Shown piece by piece: positions 45,643-52,571 of a stretch of DNA of 52,571 nucleotides (positions within the stretch are counted from its first letter, which is position 1; every line of letters starts with the position of its first letter). The notes under the pieces are model-generated. The model did not search any database. It saw nothing but the letters and a program-made list of their open reading frames with translations, and was not told where the DNA came from. The DNA comes from Actinomycetota bacterium (GTDB lineage Bacteria > Actinomycetota > Actinomycetes > Nanopelagicales > Nanopelagicaceae). A program made the translations under genes and the position numbers. The stretch spans positions 1-52,571 of the forward strand of contig JAPLBF010000027.1 of assembly GCA_026392825.1 (NCBI GenBank). Direction: 5' to 3'.

Positions 45643-48240
45643 TTAATGCGCGGCTTCGTTCCAACTCTTACCAATACCAACGCTGACATCTAAAGGTGCT
45701 TTGAGCGGATATGCCGCGGCCATCTCGCGGCGCACTAACGAGGTAAGACTCTCTTCTTCTCCAGCTACTACTTCCAAGATCAATTCATCGTGCACTTGCA
45801 GCAATAGGCGTGATTGAAGTTTCTCTTCTTGCAGCGCACGTTGCACATTTAGCATCGCTTGCTTAATGATGTCGGCAGCGGATCCTTGGATCGGTGCATT
45901 TAGAGCCATGCGTTCGGCAATCTCACGGCGTTGACGATTATCGTGCGTCAGATCGGGAAGGTAGCGACGACGACCCATCACCGTTTCGGTGTATCCAACT
46001 TTGCGCGCTTCGACAACCACGCTACTTAAATAATCACGGATACCACCGAAACGTAGGAAGTACTTATCCATTAAATCTTGGGCAGCAGGTGGCGAGAGAT
46101 CTAGTTGAACCGCCAAGCCATAAGCGCTAAGTCCATAAGCCAATCCGTACGACATCGCTTTAATCTGCCGGCGCATTTCAGGATCGACATCGACGGCTGC
46201 AACTCCAAAGACAAGCGCTGCCACGGTGGCGTGTAAATCTTCACCAGTTTCAAATGCAGCAAGCAGACCTGCATCATTAGATAAATGCGCCATGATGCGC
46301 ATTTCTATCTGACTGTAATCCGCGGTCAGTAGCGAGCTATATCCAGAGCCCGCAATGAATGTCTTTCGAATGCTGCGACCTTCCTCGGTCCGCACCGGAA
46401 TATTCTGCAAGTTAGGACCAACCGAAGATAAACGACCGGTGGCAGCAACCGTTTGTGCAAAGTGAGTACGGATGCGACCGTCTGCGCCAATTTCTGCGAT
46501 CAACCCTTCGACCGTTGTGCCAAGTTTCTTAGTTTCACGAATACGCAAGAGTGATGCCAGAAGTGGATGTTTAGTCTTCTCAAAGAGCCAATTAAGCGCC
46601 TCGGCATCAGTTGTAAATCCAGTCTTAATTTTCTTAGTCTTCGGCAGATTTAATTCGTCAAAGAGAACGACTTGTAGTTGCTTAGGAGATGCCACATTGA
46701 ACTCGTGACCTGCGGCTAAATGCGCAGCCTTAGTTTCGCGTGCTACTTCGCCTTCAAAAAAAGTAGCAAGTTTCTCTAGTTCTTTGCGATCAACGGCTAT
46801 CCCACGATTTTCCATAACCGCCAAGAGCTGGGCTATCGGAAGTTCTAAATCATTAAATAGCTGCAGAACGCCACGGTCACGCATCTCCGTTTCCAAAGAT
46901 TTACGTAAAGTGAAAAGGACCGCCGCGCTACTTAATAGTTCTTGCTCGGGAGAAGATAAATCTATTGCGGCTCCATCTCCCCATCGCTCAAGGAGATCAG
47001 GCAACTCTTGGGCACGGACTCCCGGATTAACTAGATATGCCGCCAAAGCGGTGTCAAAGATAACTCCATCAAGTAAATTCTCGCGTGCCAGTGTTTTTGC
47101 ATCGTGTGCAATTTTCGGAATCATTTTATTCTGAGCCCACTCCCCCATTTGCGAGGAGTGAATCAATTGGACATCTGACGGTGAAAATGCAACTGCGTAG
47201 CGATGCAATTTCTCATCACGTATTTCAAATGAAACTGCAATTTCACCTTGATGGGTGGAAATACGGGCATCTATCTCAGCTGGCGTAAGCACACCACCTT
47301 CGACAGTAGGTGCAAAGAGGGTTAACTCCTCAATAGATTCCTGCTTCTTAACTACAGAATCAGGGTTAAGAATTGGCTTAAGGCGATCCTTTAGCGTCCT
47401 AAATTCCAGTTGTTCGAATAGTTTGGTGAGATCTGCTTCCACTACGCCTGGCCAAGATAAATCATCAACTTTGTACTCGATGGGAGCATCGTGAATCAAC
47501 TGGGTCAGCTCGCGATTGCGAATGACATCGTTGATGTTATCGCGCAGAGATTGACCTACTTTGCCGCCCACTTTATCCACGTTGGCAATTAGTTCTTGCA
47601 GCGACCCGTACTCCACAATCCACTTAGCCGCTGTTTTTTCGCCAACGCCAGGAATAGATGGCAAGTTATCGCTTGGATCTCCGCGAAGTGCCGCAAAATC
47701 TGGATATTGATCTGGCGTCATCCCGTACTTTTCCTGAACTGCAGTGGGCGTCATTCGCGCCATTTCAGAAACGCCACGCTTTGGATAAAGAACTGTTGTC
47801 TTATCTGTTACCAACTGAAAGCTATCTCGGTCGCCTGTACAGATGAGAACTTCTGCGCCTTCACGTTCGGCTTGCTTGGTAATTGTTGCGATTATGTCAT
47901 CCGCCTCAAAGCCTTCTAATGCAAACTGCGTTATCCCAAAGCCATTGACCAAATCATTCAGAAAGGACATCTGCGAGCGAAATTCATCGGGTGTCTTGGC
48001 GCGATTAGCTTTGTAATCAGGAAAAATATCGGTACGAAAAGTCTTGCGCGAAACATCAAAAGCAACGGCCACGTGAGTCGGTTTCTCATCTTTCAACAGA
48101 GAGATCAGCATTGTGGCAAAACCGTAGATCGCGTTGGTGTGCTGGCCTTGGGCCGTTGTGAAATTCTCGGCAGGAAGGGCGAAGAAAGCTCGATATGCCA
48201 TTGAGTGGCCATCGATTAGAAGTAATCGCTTCTGGGCCAT
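45643..48240 (-). CDS. polA: DNA polymerase I
   Basis: PolA fills repair gaps and removes RNA primers. The 865-aa protein has an N-terminal 5'-3' exonuclease (DGHSMAYRAFFAL, EGFEADDIIATI, GDRDSFQLV, DNLPSIPGVGEKTA), a central 3'-5' exonuclease-like domain and a polymerase domain with motif A LLTADYSQIEMRI, motif B RRQIKAMSYGLAYGLSAYGL and motif C QVHDELILEV. The central domain lacks the acidic DxE pair (SFEIRD at that place), so proofreading is probably absent, as in other actinobacterial PolA. The ATG is preceded by TAGGAT and 6 nt. It is divergent from the thioesterase gene. Confidence 0.97.
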   Translation of the reverse strand: MAQKRLLLIDGHSMAYRAFFALPAENFTTAQGQHTNAIYGFATMLISLLKDEKPTHVAVAFDVSRKTFRTDIFPDYKANRAKTPDEFRSQMSFLNDLVNGFGITQFALEGFEADDIIATITKQAEREGAEVLICTGDRDSFQLVTDKTTVLYPKRGVSEMARMTPTAVQEKYGMTPDQYPDFAALRGDPSDNLPSIPGVGEKTAAKWIVEYGSLQELIANVDKVGGKVGQSLRDNINDVIRNRELTQLIHDAPIEYKVDDLSWPGVVEADLTKLFEQLEFRTLKDRLKPILNPDSVVKKQESIEELTLFAPTVEGGVLTPAEIDARISTHQGEIAVSFEIRDEKLHRYAVAFSPSDVQLIHSSQMGEWAQNKMIPKIAHDAKTLARENLLDGVIFDTALAAYLVNPGVRAQELPDLLERWGDGAAIDLSSPEQELLSSAAVLFTLRKSLETEMRDRGVLQLFNDLELPIAQLLAVMENRGIAVDRKELEKLATFFEGEVARETKAAHLAAGHEFNVASPKQLQVVLFDELNLPKTKKIKTGFTTDAEALNWLFEKTKHPLLASLLRIRETKKLGTTVEGLIAEIGADGRIRTHFAQTVAATGRLSSVGPNLQNIPVRTEEGRSIRKTFIAGSGYSSLLTADYSQIEMRIMAHLSNDAGLLAAFETGEDLHATVAALVFGVAAVDVDPEMRRQIKAMSYGLAYGLSAYGLAVQLDLSPPAAQDLMDKYFLRFGGIRDYLSSVVVEARKVGYTETVMGRRRYLPDLTHDNRQRREIAERMALNAPIQGSAADIIKQAMLNVQRALQEEKLQSRLLLQVHDELILEVVAGEEESLTSLVRREMAAAYPLKAPLDVSVGIGKSWNEAAH

Positions 48241-48246
48241 TGCGCC

Positions 48247-48252
48247 ATCCTA
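48247..48252 (-). promoter_or_regulatory. polA -10 box, leaderless promoter
   Basis: TAGGAT on the minus strand lies 6 nt before the polA ATG, within the 47 bp separating the polA and thioesterase start codons. No ribosome binding site is present. Confidence 0.45.
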
Positions 48253-48273
48253 GAGAAGTACTCGTTAACAAGT

Positions 48274-48279
48274 TACTAT
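48274..48279 (+). promoter_or_regulatory. Thioesterase gene -10 box, leaderless promoter
   Basis: TACTAT lies 8 nt before the ATG at 48288. It supports this start over longer in-frame starts that would lie inside polA. Confidence 0.35.
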
Positions 48280-48287
48280 TTCGAACT

Positions 48288-48719
48288 ATGACGCAGCCAG
48301 AAAATACCCCAAACTATTTAGAGTTGATTCGCGAACGTGGAAGTGGTGCCCTAGATAAGAAGATGGGGATCGAGATTTTGGAGGCGTCCCCGCAACGTTT
48401 AGTTGGACGAATGCCAGTTGAGGGAAATACTCAACCAATCGGATTGCTACACGGCGGCGCCAGCGTTGTACTTGCCGAGTCTTTAGGCTCTGTTGGAACA
48501 CAACTTCACGCCGGTCCAAATCGAAAAATTGTGGGCGTTGATATAAATGCCACACATCACAAATCAGCGACGTCAGGTTTTGTTACTGGGGTTGCAACCG
48601 CAGTCTCCTTGGGGAAAACCCTGTGCTCCTATGAAATTGTGATCACAAATGAGGCTGGTCAAAGAACCTGCACCGCTCGGATAACCTGCCTGATCCTTGC
48701 CGAGGCCGCGGTCCGTTAG
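48288..48719 (+). CDS. PaaI-family hotdog thioesterase
   Basis: The 143-aa protein has the hotdog fold signature of the PaaI/YdiI group: IGLLHGGASVVLAESLGSVG with the conserved HGG, followed by VGVDINATHHKSATSGFVTG. Members hydrolyse acyl-CoA thioesters such as aromatic-CoA or 1,4-dihydroxy-2-naphthoyl-CoA. In actinobacteria a PaaI-like gene often neighbours polA, so the substrate cannot be inferred from pathway neighbours here. The start is ATG 48288; upstream frame belongs to the polA 5' end. Confidence 0.87.
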   Translation: MTQPENTPNYLELIRERGSGALDKKMGIEILEASPQRLVGRMPVEGNTQPIGLLHGGASVVLAESLGSVGTQLHAGPNRKIVGVDINATHHKSATSGFVTGVATAVSLGKTLCSYEIVITNEAGQRTCTARITCLILAEAAVR

Positions 48720-48726
48720 TTAAGGT
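48697..48726 (+). promoter_or_regulatory. Possible liv operon promoter
   Basis: TTGCCG (48697-48702), an 18-bp spacer and TAAGGT (48721-48726) straddle the thioesterase stop. Start would be near 48733, giving a leader of about 80 nt to livH. The hexamers are imperfect, but spacer length matches the rRNA promoters. Confidence 0.35.
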
Positions 48727-48748
48727 TAGCCACCTAGCAAGAGCAATC

Positions 48749-48768
48749 TGCATCCAACGATTGATGCA
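48749..48768 (+). promoter_or_regulatory. Inverted repeat upstream of livH
   Basis: TGCATC-N8-GATGCA is a perfect 6-bp inverted repeat 45 bp before the livH ATG. It could be a regulator-binding site for the transport operon or a weak RNA hairpin. It is followed by CTGAAAAAAG, which is not a terminator tract. Confidence 0.4.
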
Positions 48769-48813
48769 CTGAAAAAAGATGTGGAGTGCGACTTGAATTT
48801 AGCAAGAAAGAAG

Positions 48814-50088
48814 ATGAGCGCGCGCTTCATCCTCTCGTTAATCACCGTATTAAGTGCGGCAGCTGGTTTCTCTTCAATCGCAGCCCCTGCGCACGCTGCT
48901 GATAAACCCACCAAACTCTACGGAGTGGTTACTAGTTCTACCGAAGAACCACTTGCCGGAGTAGGCATCTCAGTTGTTGGTCCAGATGGCTTCAGCGCTG
49001 AAATTAAAACCGATTCGCTTGGAAAATGGGAAGTTCTCATTCCTGTTAAGGGCACATATAGCGCGACGATCAATGAGGGCGATCTTCCTTCTGGGCAGGC
49101 GCTAACTGATCCGACCAAGGTAACCGTCAAAGCAAATGTATTCATGCTTGGTGTGGAACTTCGACTTCTCTTTCCTGTAGGACCAGGAGTTGAGAAAGCC
49201 ACCCTGCTGGAACGGTCAGCTCAATTGACAGTAGATGGATTAATTCTGGGACTGATAATTGCGTTAGCTGCTTTGGGGCTAAATTTAATTTTTGGAACAA
49301 CTGGGCTAACCAACTTTGCCCACGGTGAGATATTAACCTTTGCCGGACTTCTTACCTATTACTTCAGCGCCATAGCCAAGCTGCCGGTTCTTTTAGCGGC
49401 ACCGATCGCAGTTGTACTAAGTGCATTCATTTCAGGATTCTTGCAAGACAGATACCTATGGAAACCACTGCGCAAACGTGGAACCGGTTTAATTGCAATG
49501 CTGGTTGTTTCAATTGGATTTGCAATCTTTTTGCGTTATTTCTTCCTCTTCCTCTTCGGTGGAGATACACGACAACTTCCGCAGTATGCAGGGCAAGCCG
49601 GGCTCGAGCTTGGGTTAGTTAGTATCACTCCAAAATCTATTCTTACGACGGTAATTGGAATCGGATTTATAGTATTTGCAACGCTATGGCTCCTCCGTAC
49701 TCGCATGGGCAAGGCCAGTAGAGCGGTTGCAGATAATCCCGCTCTAGCTTCTGCTTCAGGAATTGACGTACAAAAGGTTATTCGAGCGGTATGGATTTTA
49801 GGTGCAGCCCTGGCTGGTTACGCCGGTGTCATTGTTACCGTCAACCAAGGCGTCAGCTTCCTTATGGGACAGGACATGCTGCTTCTTATATTTGCAGCAG
49901 TTACATTAGGTGGATTGGGTACCGCTAATGGCGCACTTGTTGGCTCATTGATCATTGGTCTCTTTGTTCAGTTATCAACTTTGTTCATTCCGACTGAGTT
50001 GAAGTATGTAGGCGCATTGATCGTTCTGATCTTAATCTTGATCGTTCGTCCTCAGGGAATTCTGGGCCGGAAAGAGAGGATTGGCTAA
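48814..50088 (+). CDS. livH: LivH-type ABC permease with N-terminal signal peptide and beta-sandwich-like domain
   Basis: From residue about 120 this is a normal LivH inner-membrane permease: GLILGLIIALAALGLNLIFG, TNFAHGEILTFAGL, TLGGLGTANGALVGSLIIGL and RPQGILGRKE. Unusually it starts with a signal peptide (hydrophobic core 5-17, likely cleavage after AHA near residue 28) and an 85-residue segment, about 32-118, that reads like a carboxypeptidase regulatory/Ig-like fold (LYGVVTSSTEEPLAGVGISV, KTDSLGKWEVLIPVKGTYSA). I chose ATG 48814 because it begins the signal peptide; an upstream GTG at 48781 would add 11 polar residues. The 424-aa protein is about 130 residues longer than standard LivH. 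Confidence 0.88.
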   Translation: MSARFILSLITVLSAAAGFSSIAAPAHAADKPTKLYGVVTSSTEEPLAGVGISVVGPDGFSAEIKTDSLGKWEVLIPVKGTYSATINEGDLPSGQALTDPTKVTVKANVFMLGVELRLLFPVGPGVEKATLLERSAQLTVDGLILGLIIALAALGLNLIFGTTGLTNFAHGEILTFAGLLTYYFSAIAKLPVLLAAPIAVVLSAFISGFLQDRYLWKPLRKRGTGLIAMLVVSIGFAIFLRYFFLFLFGGDTRQLPQYAGQAGLELGLVSITPKSILTTVIGIGFIVFATLWLLRTRMGKASRAVADNPALASASGIDVQKVIRAVWILGAALAGYAGVIVTVNQGVSFLMGQDMLLLIFAAVTLGGLGTANGALVGSLIIGLFVQLSTLFIPTELKYVGALIVLILILIVRPQGILGRKERIG

Positions 50089-51084
50089 ATGGACATTCTC
50101 TTTATTATTCAACAGACCTTGAGTGCAACTCTTGGAGTTAATGCAATCATATTTGCACTGGCTGCAATTGGTCTGAATATGCACTTCGGTTACACGGGTT
50201 TGCTCAACTTCGGTCAGGCAGGTTTTCTAGCAATCGGTGCTTACAGTGTCGCAGTACCGGTTATCTCCTTTGGCCTCTCACTTTGGCTAGCTCTTTTGAT
50301 TGGCATTTTTAATTCGATTCTCTTTGCCCTACTTCTCGGAGTTCCGACTTTAAGATTACGGGCTGACTATCTTGCGATCGTAACTATCGCTGCTGCTGAA
50401 ATCGTTCGACAGATTGCGCGCTCTGCCACATTTAATGACTCACTCGGTGGATCAGATGGAATCACCGGAAAGTTCGGTAAGGAATTCTTCGACCTCAATC
50501 CATTTAAAGAAGGCCTTACAACTCCTATTCTTCGCTTTAATGGCAACGACCTTTGGGTTGTTATAACTGGCTGGATTCTTGTTGCGATCATTACATTCAT
50601 TATGTGGATTATGGTCAACTCACCATGGGGTCGAGTTATGCGCGCCATCCGTGAGGATGAAGATGCGGTTCGTTCACTAGGTAAAAACGTCTACCTGTAC
50701 AAAATGCAATCGCTGATTATCGGTGGCGTCATTGGATCCTTGGGTGGCTTTGTATATGCCTTGTCTCGTCAGTCAGTCCAACCAGATAACTACGGAACCG
50801 CACTAACTTTCTTCGCCTACACAGTACTTATCCTGGGCGGCGCTGCAAGAGTCTTCGCGCCAATCGTGGGCGCAATGATTTTCTGGTTCCTGATCGTATT
50901 TATTGAACAGATACTTCGCGCAGGAGTAACGTCAAACTTGATTCCAGATTGGCTGATTGGAGTAAATCAAGTTGGGCAGATTCGATTCATGCTCATGGGT
51001 CTTGGGCTAATGCTCCTGATGATCTTTAGGCCACAGGGAATCTTTGGCGATAAGAAGGAGTTGGCACTTGATGCAAAAGCATAA
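50089..51084 (+). CDS. livM: LivM-type ABC permease
   Basis: The second permease of a branched-chain amino-acid type importer has 331 aa and about eight to ten transmembrane helices. Typical LivM segments are LNMHFGYTGLLNFGQAGFLAIGA, TLRLRADYLAIVTIAAAEIVR, SPWGRVMRAIREDEDAVRSLG (the coupling-helix region contacting LivG/LivF) and FRPQGIFGDKKE. It starts directly after the livH TAA and overlaps livG. The substrate could be leucine, isoleucine, valine or another amide or amino acid; no binding protein gene is in the window. Confidence 0.93.
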   Translation: MDILFIIQQTLSATLGVNAIIFALAAIGLNMHFGYTGLLNFGQAGFLAIGAYSVAVPVISFGLSLWLALLIGIFNSILFALLLGVPTLRLRADYLAIVTIAAAEIVRQIARSATFNDSLGGSDGITGKFGKEFFDLNPFKEGLTTPILRFNGNDLWVVITGWILVAIITFIMWIMVNSPWGRVMRAIREDEDAVRSLGKNVYLYKMQSLIIGGVIGSLGGFVYALSRQSVQPDNYGTALTFFAYTVLILGGAARVFAPIVGAMIFWFLIVFIEQILRAGVTSNLIPDWLIGVNQVGQIRFMLMGLGLMLLMIFRPQGIFGDKKELALDAKA

Positions 51085-51925
51085 CTCCGGGGCAGACTTT
51101 GCCTTGACTACTTCGCAAACTGCTGGATCTTCAAAGCCAGATCCTATTTTGATTGCAGATAAAATAACGCGCCAATTCGGTGGGTTAACCGCCGTCAACG
51201 TTGATCACGTAGAGATACAGCGCGGTTCTATTACGGCGTTGATCGGCCCAAATGGCGCTGGAAAAACTACCTTCTTTAATCTTCTAACAGGCTATGACTC
51301 CCCTAATTCAGGAACCTGGAGTTTTAACGGCAAGGCGCTTAATGGAATTCCGCCACATAAAGTTGCCAGACTCGGAATGGTTCGTACCTTTCAGTTAACC
51401 AAAGCCCTCTACCGACTAACAGTTATGGAAAATATGTTGCTCGGTGCTAGAGCGCAAAAGGGAGAATCAGTTCTCCTCTCGGTTTTTCCTTGGATCTGGC
51501 GCGCGCAAGAGGCGCAGATCCAGGTAAAAGCAACATCGATCCTCGAGAAATTTAAACTTCTGGAAAAGCAAGATGATTTCGCTGCAGCTTTATCAGGTGG
51601 TCAGAGAAAACTTCTCGAAATGGCCAGAGCGCTAATGGTTGAGCCAGAAATGGTGATGCTAGATGAGCCAATGGCCGGCGTAAACCCTGCACTGAAACAA
51701 TCCCTCTTGGAACATATCAAAGATTTACGCAGTGAGGGAAAGACAGTTCTTTTCGTTGAACACGATATGGATATGGTTCATGAGATTAGCGACTGGGTGA
51801 TTGTTATGGCACAGGGTCAAATTATTGCCGAGGGTACTCCAGCGAGCGTTATGGGAAATTCTCAGGTGATTGAAGCTTATTTGGGCGCTCATCACGATAC
51901 AGATTTATCAAGCGAAGGGGCGTGA
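51071..51925 (+). CDS. livG: LivG-type ABC ATPase
   Basis: The ATPase (284 aa) energises the importer with LivF. It has Walker A GPNGAGKTT, signature LSGGQRKLLEMARALM, Walker B MVMLDEPMAGVNP and switch histidine in VLFVEHDMDMV. I chose ATG 51071, with AAGGAG 10 nt upstream (an in-frame TTG directly precedes it); the longer frame from 51044 lies within livM. The gene overlaps the livM end by 14 bp. A 25-residue polar N-terminal leader precedes the conserved ILIADKITRQFGG. Confidence 0.93.
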   Translation: MQKHNSGADFALTTSQTAGSSKPDPILIADKITRQFGGLTAVNVDHVEIQRGSITALIGPNGAGKTTFFNLLTGYDSPNSGTWSFNGKALNGIPPHKVARLGMVRTFQLTKALYRLTVMENMLLGARAQKGESVLLSVFPWIWRAQEAQIQVKATSILEKFKLLEKQDDFAAALSGGQRKLLEMARALMVEPEMVMLDEPMAGVNPALKQSLLEHIKDLRSEGKTVLFVEHDMDMVHEISDWVIVMAQGQIIAEGTPASVMGNSQVIEAYLGAHHDTDLSSEGA

Positions 51926-51928
51926 GTG

Positions 51929-52571
51929 ATGAGTTCATCTGTGACTACAGCGCTGGTTTCTGCAAAGGATTTAGTAGCCGGGTACCTACCTGGAATTAAT
52001 ATTCTCAATGGCTGTAATTTGTATGCCAATAAGGGAGAACTCGTTGGCATCATCGGCCCCAACGGAGCGGGTAAGTCAACGCTGCTAAAAGCGTTGTTTG
52101 GACTTGTAAAAATTCGTGAAGGTGCCGTCACTCTCGCTGGCGAAGAGATTACAAATATGAGAGCGGACCAATTAGTCGAGCGAGGAATCGGTTTTGTTCC
52201 TCAAAGCAACAATGTTTTTCCATCTTTAACGATTGAAGAGAACCTTCAGATGGGCGCCTTTCAATCACCTGATAAATTCTCAGAGCGTTTTGACTTTGTA
52301 ACCGAACTTTTCCCAACTCTGCGAACACGACGCAAGCAGAGAGCTGGTTCTTTATCTGGTGGTGAGCGCCAGATGGTTGCTATGGGTAGAGCTCTTATGA
52401 TGAATCCATCTGTACTCCTGCTAGATGAACCAAGTGCTGGACTATCCCCTGCCTTGCAGGATGAAGTCTTTGTACGTGTTCGTGAGATTAATAAGATTGG
52501 CGTAACGGTAATCATGGTCGAGCAAAACGCACGTAGATGTTTGCAGATCGTTGATCGAGGTTATGTTCTAG
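51929..52571 (+). CDS. livF: LivF-type ABC ATPase, cut by window edge
   Basis: This gene starts at ATG 51929, 3 bp after the livG stop, and stays open to the right edge (214 codons). It encodes Walker A GPNGAGKSTLLKALFG, the Q-loop GFVPQSNNVFPSLT, signature LSGGERQMVAMGRALM, Walker B VLLLDEPSAGLSP and the switch segment IMVEQNARR. Family length is about 235 aa, so only some 20 residues are missing. It completes the livHMGF set; a livK-like binding protein gene may follow outside the window. Confidence 0.93.
   Translation, partial: MSSSVTTALVSAKDLVAGYLPGINILNGCNLYANKGELVGIIGPNGAGKSTLLKALFGLVKIREGAVTLAGEEITNMRADQLVERGIGFVPQSNNVFPSLTIEENLQMGAFQSPDKFSERFDFVTELFPTLRTRRKQRAGSLSGGERQMVAMGRALMMNPSVLLLDEPSAGLSPALQDEVFVRVREINKIGVTVIMVEQNARRCLQIVDRGYVL

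Follow-up and report, generated by a model that had tools for sequence, protein, structure and literature searches.

A predicted prealbumin/CnaB-like domain at the N-terminus of a LivH-type permease widespread in Actinomycetota

Introduction

Two described systems stand closest to the permease analysed here, UrtB being the closest architectural precedent and MalF-P2 the closest functional one. The UrtB of Sinorhizobium meliloti (UIJ92873.1, 537 aa) consists of a signal peptide, ~215 residues with a weak match to HEAT repeats (helical) and a BPD_transp_2 permease; MalF-P2 directly contacts MalE (PMC3150292). The general reference is Escherichia coli LivH (PRK10740) of the HAAT family, with which the present locus has in common the permease domain, the livHMGF gene order and a LivK-type binding protein of the Peripla_BP_6 family. 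The locus lies in a window (the whole stretch of DNA analysed) of 52,571 nucleotides from a member of the Nanopelagicaceae. A preliminary description had depicted it as an oddity of one gene, in which a LivH permease is preceded by a signal peptide and an outer domain. This framing proves too narrow, since the architecture recurs across the phylum (62 of 65 matches, in 19 GTDB families; see below). The association of LivH with a predicted β-sandwich is real, widespread in Actinomycetota and apparently undescribed; the literature searched, the coverage of which is incomplete, yielded no description of a LivH with a CarboxypepD_reg domain or an N-terminal extension.

Architecture of the gene and translation start

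The gene and its parts are arranged as follows.

48781..50088, + strand, LivH-like permease gene with N-terminal extension (open frame; GTG start, alternative ATG at 48814)
48781..48897, + strand, signal peptide, predicted cleavage after AHA, residue 28 from ATG 48814 (n-, h- and c-regions read directly)
48904..49188, + strand, predicted extracytoplasmic prealbumin/CnaB-like β-sandwich domain (AF2 model, Foldseek, VIA-align, CarboxypepD_reg)
49189..49203, + strand, short linker from the domain to the first permease helix (full-length AF2 model, lower confidence at ~121–130)
49204..50085, + strand, LivH-like transmembrane permease, BPD_transp_2 (PF02653, E 3.1e-35)

Residues are counted throughout from ATG 48814, so that the signal peptide occupies residues 1–28, the domain residues ~31–125 and the permease residues 131–424. 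The protein has 424 aa from this codon and 435 aa from GTG 48781. The earlier placement of the start at ATG 48814 is probably 33 bases off. Among the 8 sequences compared, a GTG or TTG is present at 48781 in all 8, the position of ATG 48814 reads ATC, CTC, AGC or TTA in seven close relatives, and stop codons occur shortly 5′ of 48781 in three; for these reasons GTG 48781 is preferred and is probably the true start, giving a protein of 435 aa.

The signal peptide (residues 1–28, MSARFILSLITVLSAAAGFSSIAAPAHA, followed by AD) is of textbook type and ends in APAHA before the AD. Its existence, claimed from the start, is read directly in the sequence, and the same anatomy (K/R, hydrophobic core and AxA ahead of the domain) is found in 88 of 90 homologous frames, one of the two exceptions being a frame cut by a contig end. 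In LivH, positively charged segments come after helix 3, after helix 5 and, at the C-terminus, after the final helix. Since a signal peptide stands at one end and positive charges stand at the cytoplasmic ends, there is good support for inferring that the N-terminus of LivH lies outside (N-out) and that the domain is on the outer face, in line with the placement first proposed.

It was also considered that the extension might be untranslated, with LivH beginning near residues 111–118. In favour of this reading, the sole candidate, an ATG at residue 111 (49144), occurs in 18 of the 30 sequences aligned, but the rest of the clade lacks it, and there is no conserved start codon around residue 118. 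Moreover, the extension shows purifying selection on its codons, its frames are open throughout in the homologues and the signal peptides recur as described. An internal start, which the preliminary description had named as a possible refutation, is thus rejected on the grounds of the selection on domain codons, the signal peptides and the start-codon comparison, and we regard it as extremely improbable. An assembly or frame artefact is likewise rejected, because independent genomes carry the extension. The layout of signal peptide, ~95-residue domain and BPD_transp_2 permease is confirmed by these sequence comparisons as real, far beyond chance.

Assignment of the permease and operon context

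The BPD_transp_2 domain (PF02653) is matched at residues 139–409 with 122 bits, against a Pfam cut-off of 26.8. The scores for the two named families stay below their cut-offs, namely 107.2 versus 379 bits for the LivH equivalog (PRK10740) and 122.7 versus 250.3 bits for UrtB (TIGR03409). Searching the PDB with a profile of the permease family returned no solved structure related by sequence. The neighbouring genes are the following.

48288..48719, + strand, 4HBT/PaaI-type thioesterase, conserved upstream neighbour (PF03061, E 1.9e-12; synteny)
50089..51084, + strand, LivM-like permease (PF02653, E 4.6e-45)
51071..51925, + strand, LivG-like ATPase (ABC_tran, BCA_ABC_TP_C; listed from TTG 51044, with ATG 51071 matching relatives)
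51926..52570, + strand, LivF-like ATPase, cut by the end of the window and contig (ABC_tran, E 2e-34)

The order polA (− strand), 4HBT thioesterase, livH, livM, livG, livF and convergent livK is found in many loci across the phylum. Its polA–thioesterase–livH part spans 45643–50088 in the window, and most of the loci that extend far enough retain livMGF and the convergent livK. The livK of the window's genome lies at the extreme end of another contig, C17 (G000:C17:55938-57146), and its product is 96% identical to the LivK of locus L016. The break at window position 52570 separates livF from the convergent livK, and C17 and the window contig are probably neighbours. With livM, livG and livF in the window and livK at the end of C17, convergent in relatives, the composition expected of a HAAT operon is present. 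The best explanation of the permease is that it forms the first membrane subunit of an actinobacterial ABC importer of the LIV type (HAAT). The same genome has a second LIV-type operon (L085:3245-7982, G000:C6) with an ordinary LivH of 302 aa.

LivK is a Peripla_BP_6 protein with a lipobox (ASLVLAGCGGGG), and it is a lipoprotein in most loci with a readable N-terminus; automatic ‘no-lipobox’ labels, which often stem from truncated segments, were left out of this comparison. Because LivK is itself a lipoprotein, a tether provided by the LivH domain is not obviously needed. A dependence of the domain on the lipid anchor of LivK was considered and set aside, there being no simple link, as LivKs with a lipobox also occur in the unextended outgroup loci L087 and L088.

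Fold and conservation of the N-terminal domain

In the window protein, Pfam places CarboxypepD_reg (PF13620) at residues 35–87 with E 1e-5, at a score (26.3–29.9 bits) below the gathering cut-off of 32.3. All 39 homologous domains match the same family, with E-values up to 0.01 and 9e-10 at best. The full-length AF2 model has a pLDDT of 82, with 85–91 over most of the domain, and an AlphaFold model of the domain only, built with 39 homologues, reaches a pLDDT of 92.9 and a pTM of 0.82 and is mostly a β-sandwich. The top Foldseek match is CnaB2 of Lactobacillus plantarum, followed by the B-type domains of a pilin, SdrD and UafA, and further matches include 5-hydroxyisourate hydrolase and carboxypeptidase D. 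Superpositions of the predicted model by VIA-align on CnaB/TTR structures cover 91–95 residues, with Z 11.3 for the SdrD B domain (10ps; 95 residues, 3.1 Å), Z 10.4 for CnaB2 (8bdw) and Z 9.7 for a TTR-like hydrolase (3qva). The domain is thus predicted with high confidence to be a prealbumin-like (CnaB/CarboxypepD_reg) β-sandwich. The carboxypeptidase-regulatory or Ig-like fold suggested initially is borne out by the models, the structural matches and the 39 profile matches, these last also answering the doubt that a profile search might find no β-sandwich. The prealbumin/CnaB-like fold is common, and the structural matches show no function.

Conservation was assessed in 91 sequences. The conserved set comprises G37, G70, W72, G80, Y/F82, D/N87, L91, P92, G94, F120 and G123, the strongest positions being G70 (100%), L91-P92 (98%), G123 (96%), F120 (92%) and G80 (91%). 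The best conserved residues are glycines, prolines, aromatics and hydrophobics, mostly in turns and core. No acidic, basic or His position is invariant among the 91 sequences, and no Lys or Glu is conserved that could form a Lys-Asx-Glu isopeptide triad; the domain therefore looks like a structural module rather than an enzyme. These results bear on the idea of a ligand-sensing or catalytic domain, for instance a transthyretin-like hydrolase or an isopeptide-forming CnaB. The matches to 5-hydroxyisourate hydrolase and CnaB2 speak for it, but no conserved Lys, Asn/Asp, Glu, His or Arg is suited to an active site or a triad. An isopeptide or enzyme role was accordingly rejected for want of conserved residues supporting either, and we consider the idea as a whole very unlikely. 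Somewhat less improbable, albeit unlikely, is a domain that binds the cell wall or a surface polymer and positions the transporter in the envelope. Its structural matches are mostly surface proteins and pilins, as such a role would have it; however, these reflect a common fold, the domain is single and without repeats, and no conserved exposed set of aromatic residues was recognised in the 91 sequences.

As judged from codon comparisons, the domain is under purifying selection, with dN/dS of ~0.04–0.27 in close pairs as compared with ~0.01–0.17 for the permease. Among the closest relatives, amino acid changes accumulate in the domain at ~5 times the rate of the permease.

Distribution and evolution

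Scanning genome contigs brought up 52 loci from close relatives; those with a title are all actinobacterial, and the extension is seen in this set wherever the 5′ end of the frame is present. In a survey of 396 sampled Actinomycetota genomes, full-strength matches were defined by a permease similarity of E 1e-65 or better. There are 65, and 62 of them, spanning 19 GTDB families, reach into the extension; in the remaining three, those of G382 and G066 are short or cut, and that of G123 is without the domain. Matches from the order to which the window belongs have a bimodal distribution, as all 26 at 63–100% identity are extended and the other 37, at <40% identity, are ordinary LivHs of ~300 aa. 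The survey of LivH N-termini proposed at the outset, now run on the order and on the phylum, thus establishes that by sequence the extended LivH marks an actinobacterial clade with members in no fewer than 19 of the GTDB families sampled. Among its carriers are planktonic actinobacteria of fresh water, whose genomes are streamlined, and cultured members of Acrocarpospora (for example A. pleiomorpha, L038), Aeromicrobium and Nonomuraea.

A permease tree of 94 rows, made by a quick method and with its outgroup on a long branch, groups the extended proteins together, and the presence of the extension needs only two changes, one basal and one a loss at L086; the base of this tree is not polarised, the unextended outgroup being taken as ancestral by assumption. 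Some unextended LivH relatives (L092, L096 and L098) have other N-terminal additions, which resemble extra transmembrane helices. Scored against the genomes, the domain profile gives high values almost only in the extended LivH clade, with weaker matches in large surface proteins. The same type of domain, with an LPxG motif, is found in an unrelated 436-aa protein of G114 with an N-terminal zinc ribbon (L123:1693-3000, − strand). On the evidence of this strong match the domain is a mobile module, and the LPxG motif may be there for the fold of the domain itself rather than for a contact with the transporter.

The LivHs of L086:4968-5945 (G123) and L134 (G746) belong to the same clade and still have the signal peptide but no longer the β-sandwich. 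In L086 the signal peptide joins the permease almost directly, and this retention after domain loss supports an N-out LivH. The G746 copy is 99% identical to that of G123, and this domain-less type occurs in 2 of 121 genomes of that family. The LivK of this system is divergent (37%) and without a canonical lipobox. As the lineage retains the operon, the domain is dispensable; the lineage offers a natural domain-less relative for comparison.

The loss, together with the fast evolution of the domain relative to the permease and a conservation confined chiefly to core glycines and hydrophobics, argues for a passive or stabilising module that would aid the insertion, folding or stability of LivH, or shield its outer face, with no specific partner. 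Against this, the domain is kept in nearly all of the phylum-wide clade, including streamlined genomes of ~1.4 Mb, which argues for a useful role. A passive module is a possible, if rather doubtful, reading.

Proposed role of the domain

By analogy with MalF-P2, the likeliest role of the domain is to dock or guide LivK. In the proposed scheme, a signal peptide and one prealbumin/CnaB-like domain would have been fused, most simply once, to the N-terminus of LivH. The signal peptide would carry this N-terminus across the membrane and be removed by signal peptidase, and the folded domain would remain attached to the outer end of LivH helix 1; the support for these steps is good. It would thus sit beside the substrate entry, where it may offer a docking or guiding surface to the lipid-anchored LivK, as MalF-P2 does to MalE, and may stabilise the encounter of LivK with LivHM, without binding substrate itself. 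We give about even chances to this combined picture of a LIV-type LivH with a once-fused, exported N-terminal domain that docks or guides LivK. A wider proposal, a phylum-wide LIV subclass in which the CnaB-like domain of LivH docks lipid-anchored LivK as an independent β-fold counterpart of the helical UrtB extension and of MalF-P2, is put forward more tentatively, at somewhat below even chances.

A distance-based analysis of whether the domain co-evolves with LivK, with LivG and LivM as references, gave a partial r of 0.19 (p 0.10, 14 loci). Three observations count against docking: evolution at ~5 times the permease rate fits a loose function, the domain-less lineage with its operon kept implies that the domain is not strictly required, and the module recurs with its LPxG motif in the unrelated G114 protein.

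Comparison with known systems

With respect to E. coli LivH, the actinobacterial protein has ~130 extra N-terminal residues and scores far below the equivalog cut-off. It shares its fold and a weak sequence likeness with CarboxypepD_reg, CnaB, SdrD B and transthyretin-like domains. Unlike CnaB and transthyretin-like domains, that of LivH is without isopeptide triad or catalytic residues and is joined to an ABC permease.

UrtB, initially cited as a precedent with a different fold, holds as such, the S. meliloti protein having the same plan and a helical extension. The UrtBs of Pseudomonadota and the extended LivHs thus share the succession of signal peptide, extracytoplasmic domain and permease, within one permease family, but the extension is ~215 residues long and helical in UrtB and a predicted β-sandwich of ~95 residues in LivH. 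Several actinobacterial UrtB matches above the cut-off are shorter frames as read (293–318 aa), without such an extension. As the outer domain that follows the signal peptide differs between these two lineages, the N-out terminus of LivH may be a recurrent site for accessory modules. As proposed for the LivH domain, MalF-P2 is an extra folded, β-containing domain on the binding-protein side of an ABC importer permease; it lies, however, inside the permease chain (residues 91–271) and in another permease family, whereas the LivH domain is N-terminal, behind a signal peptide.
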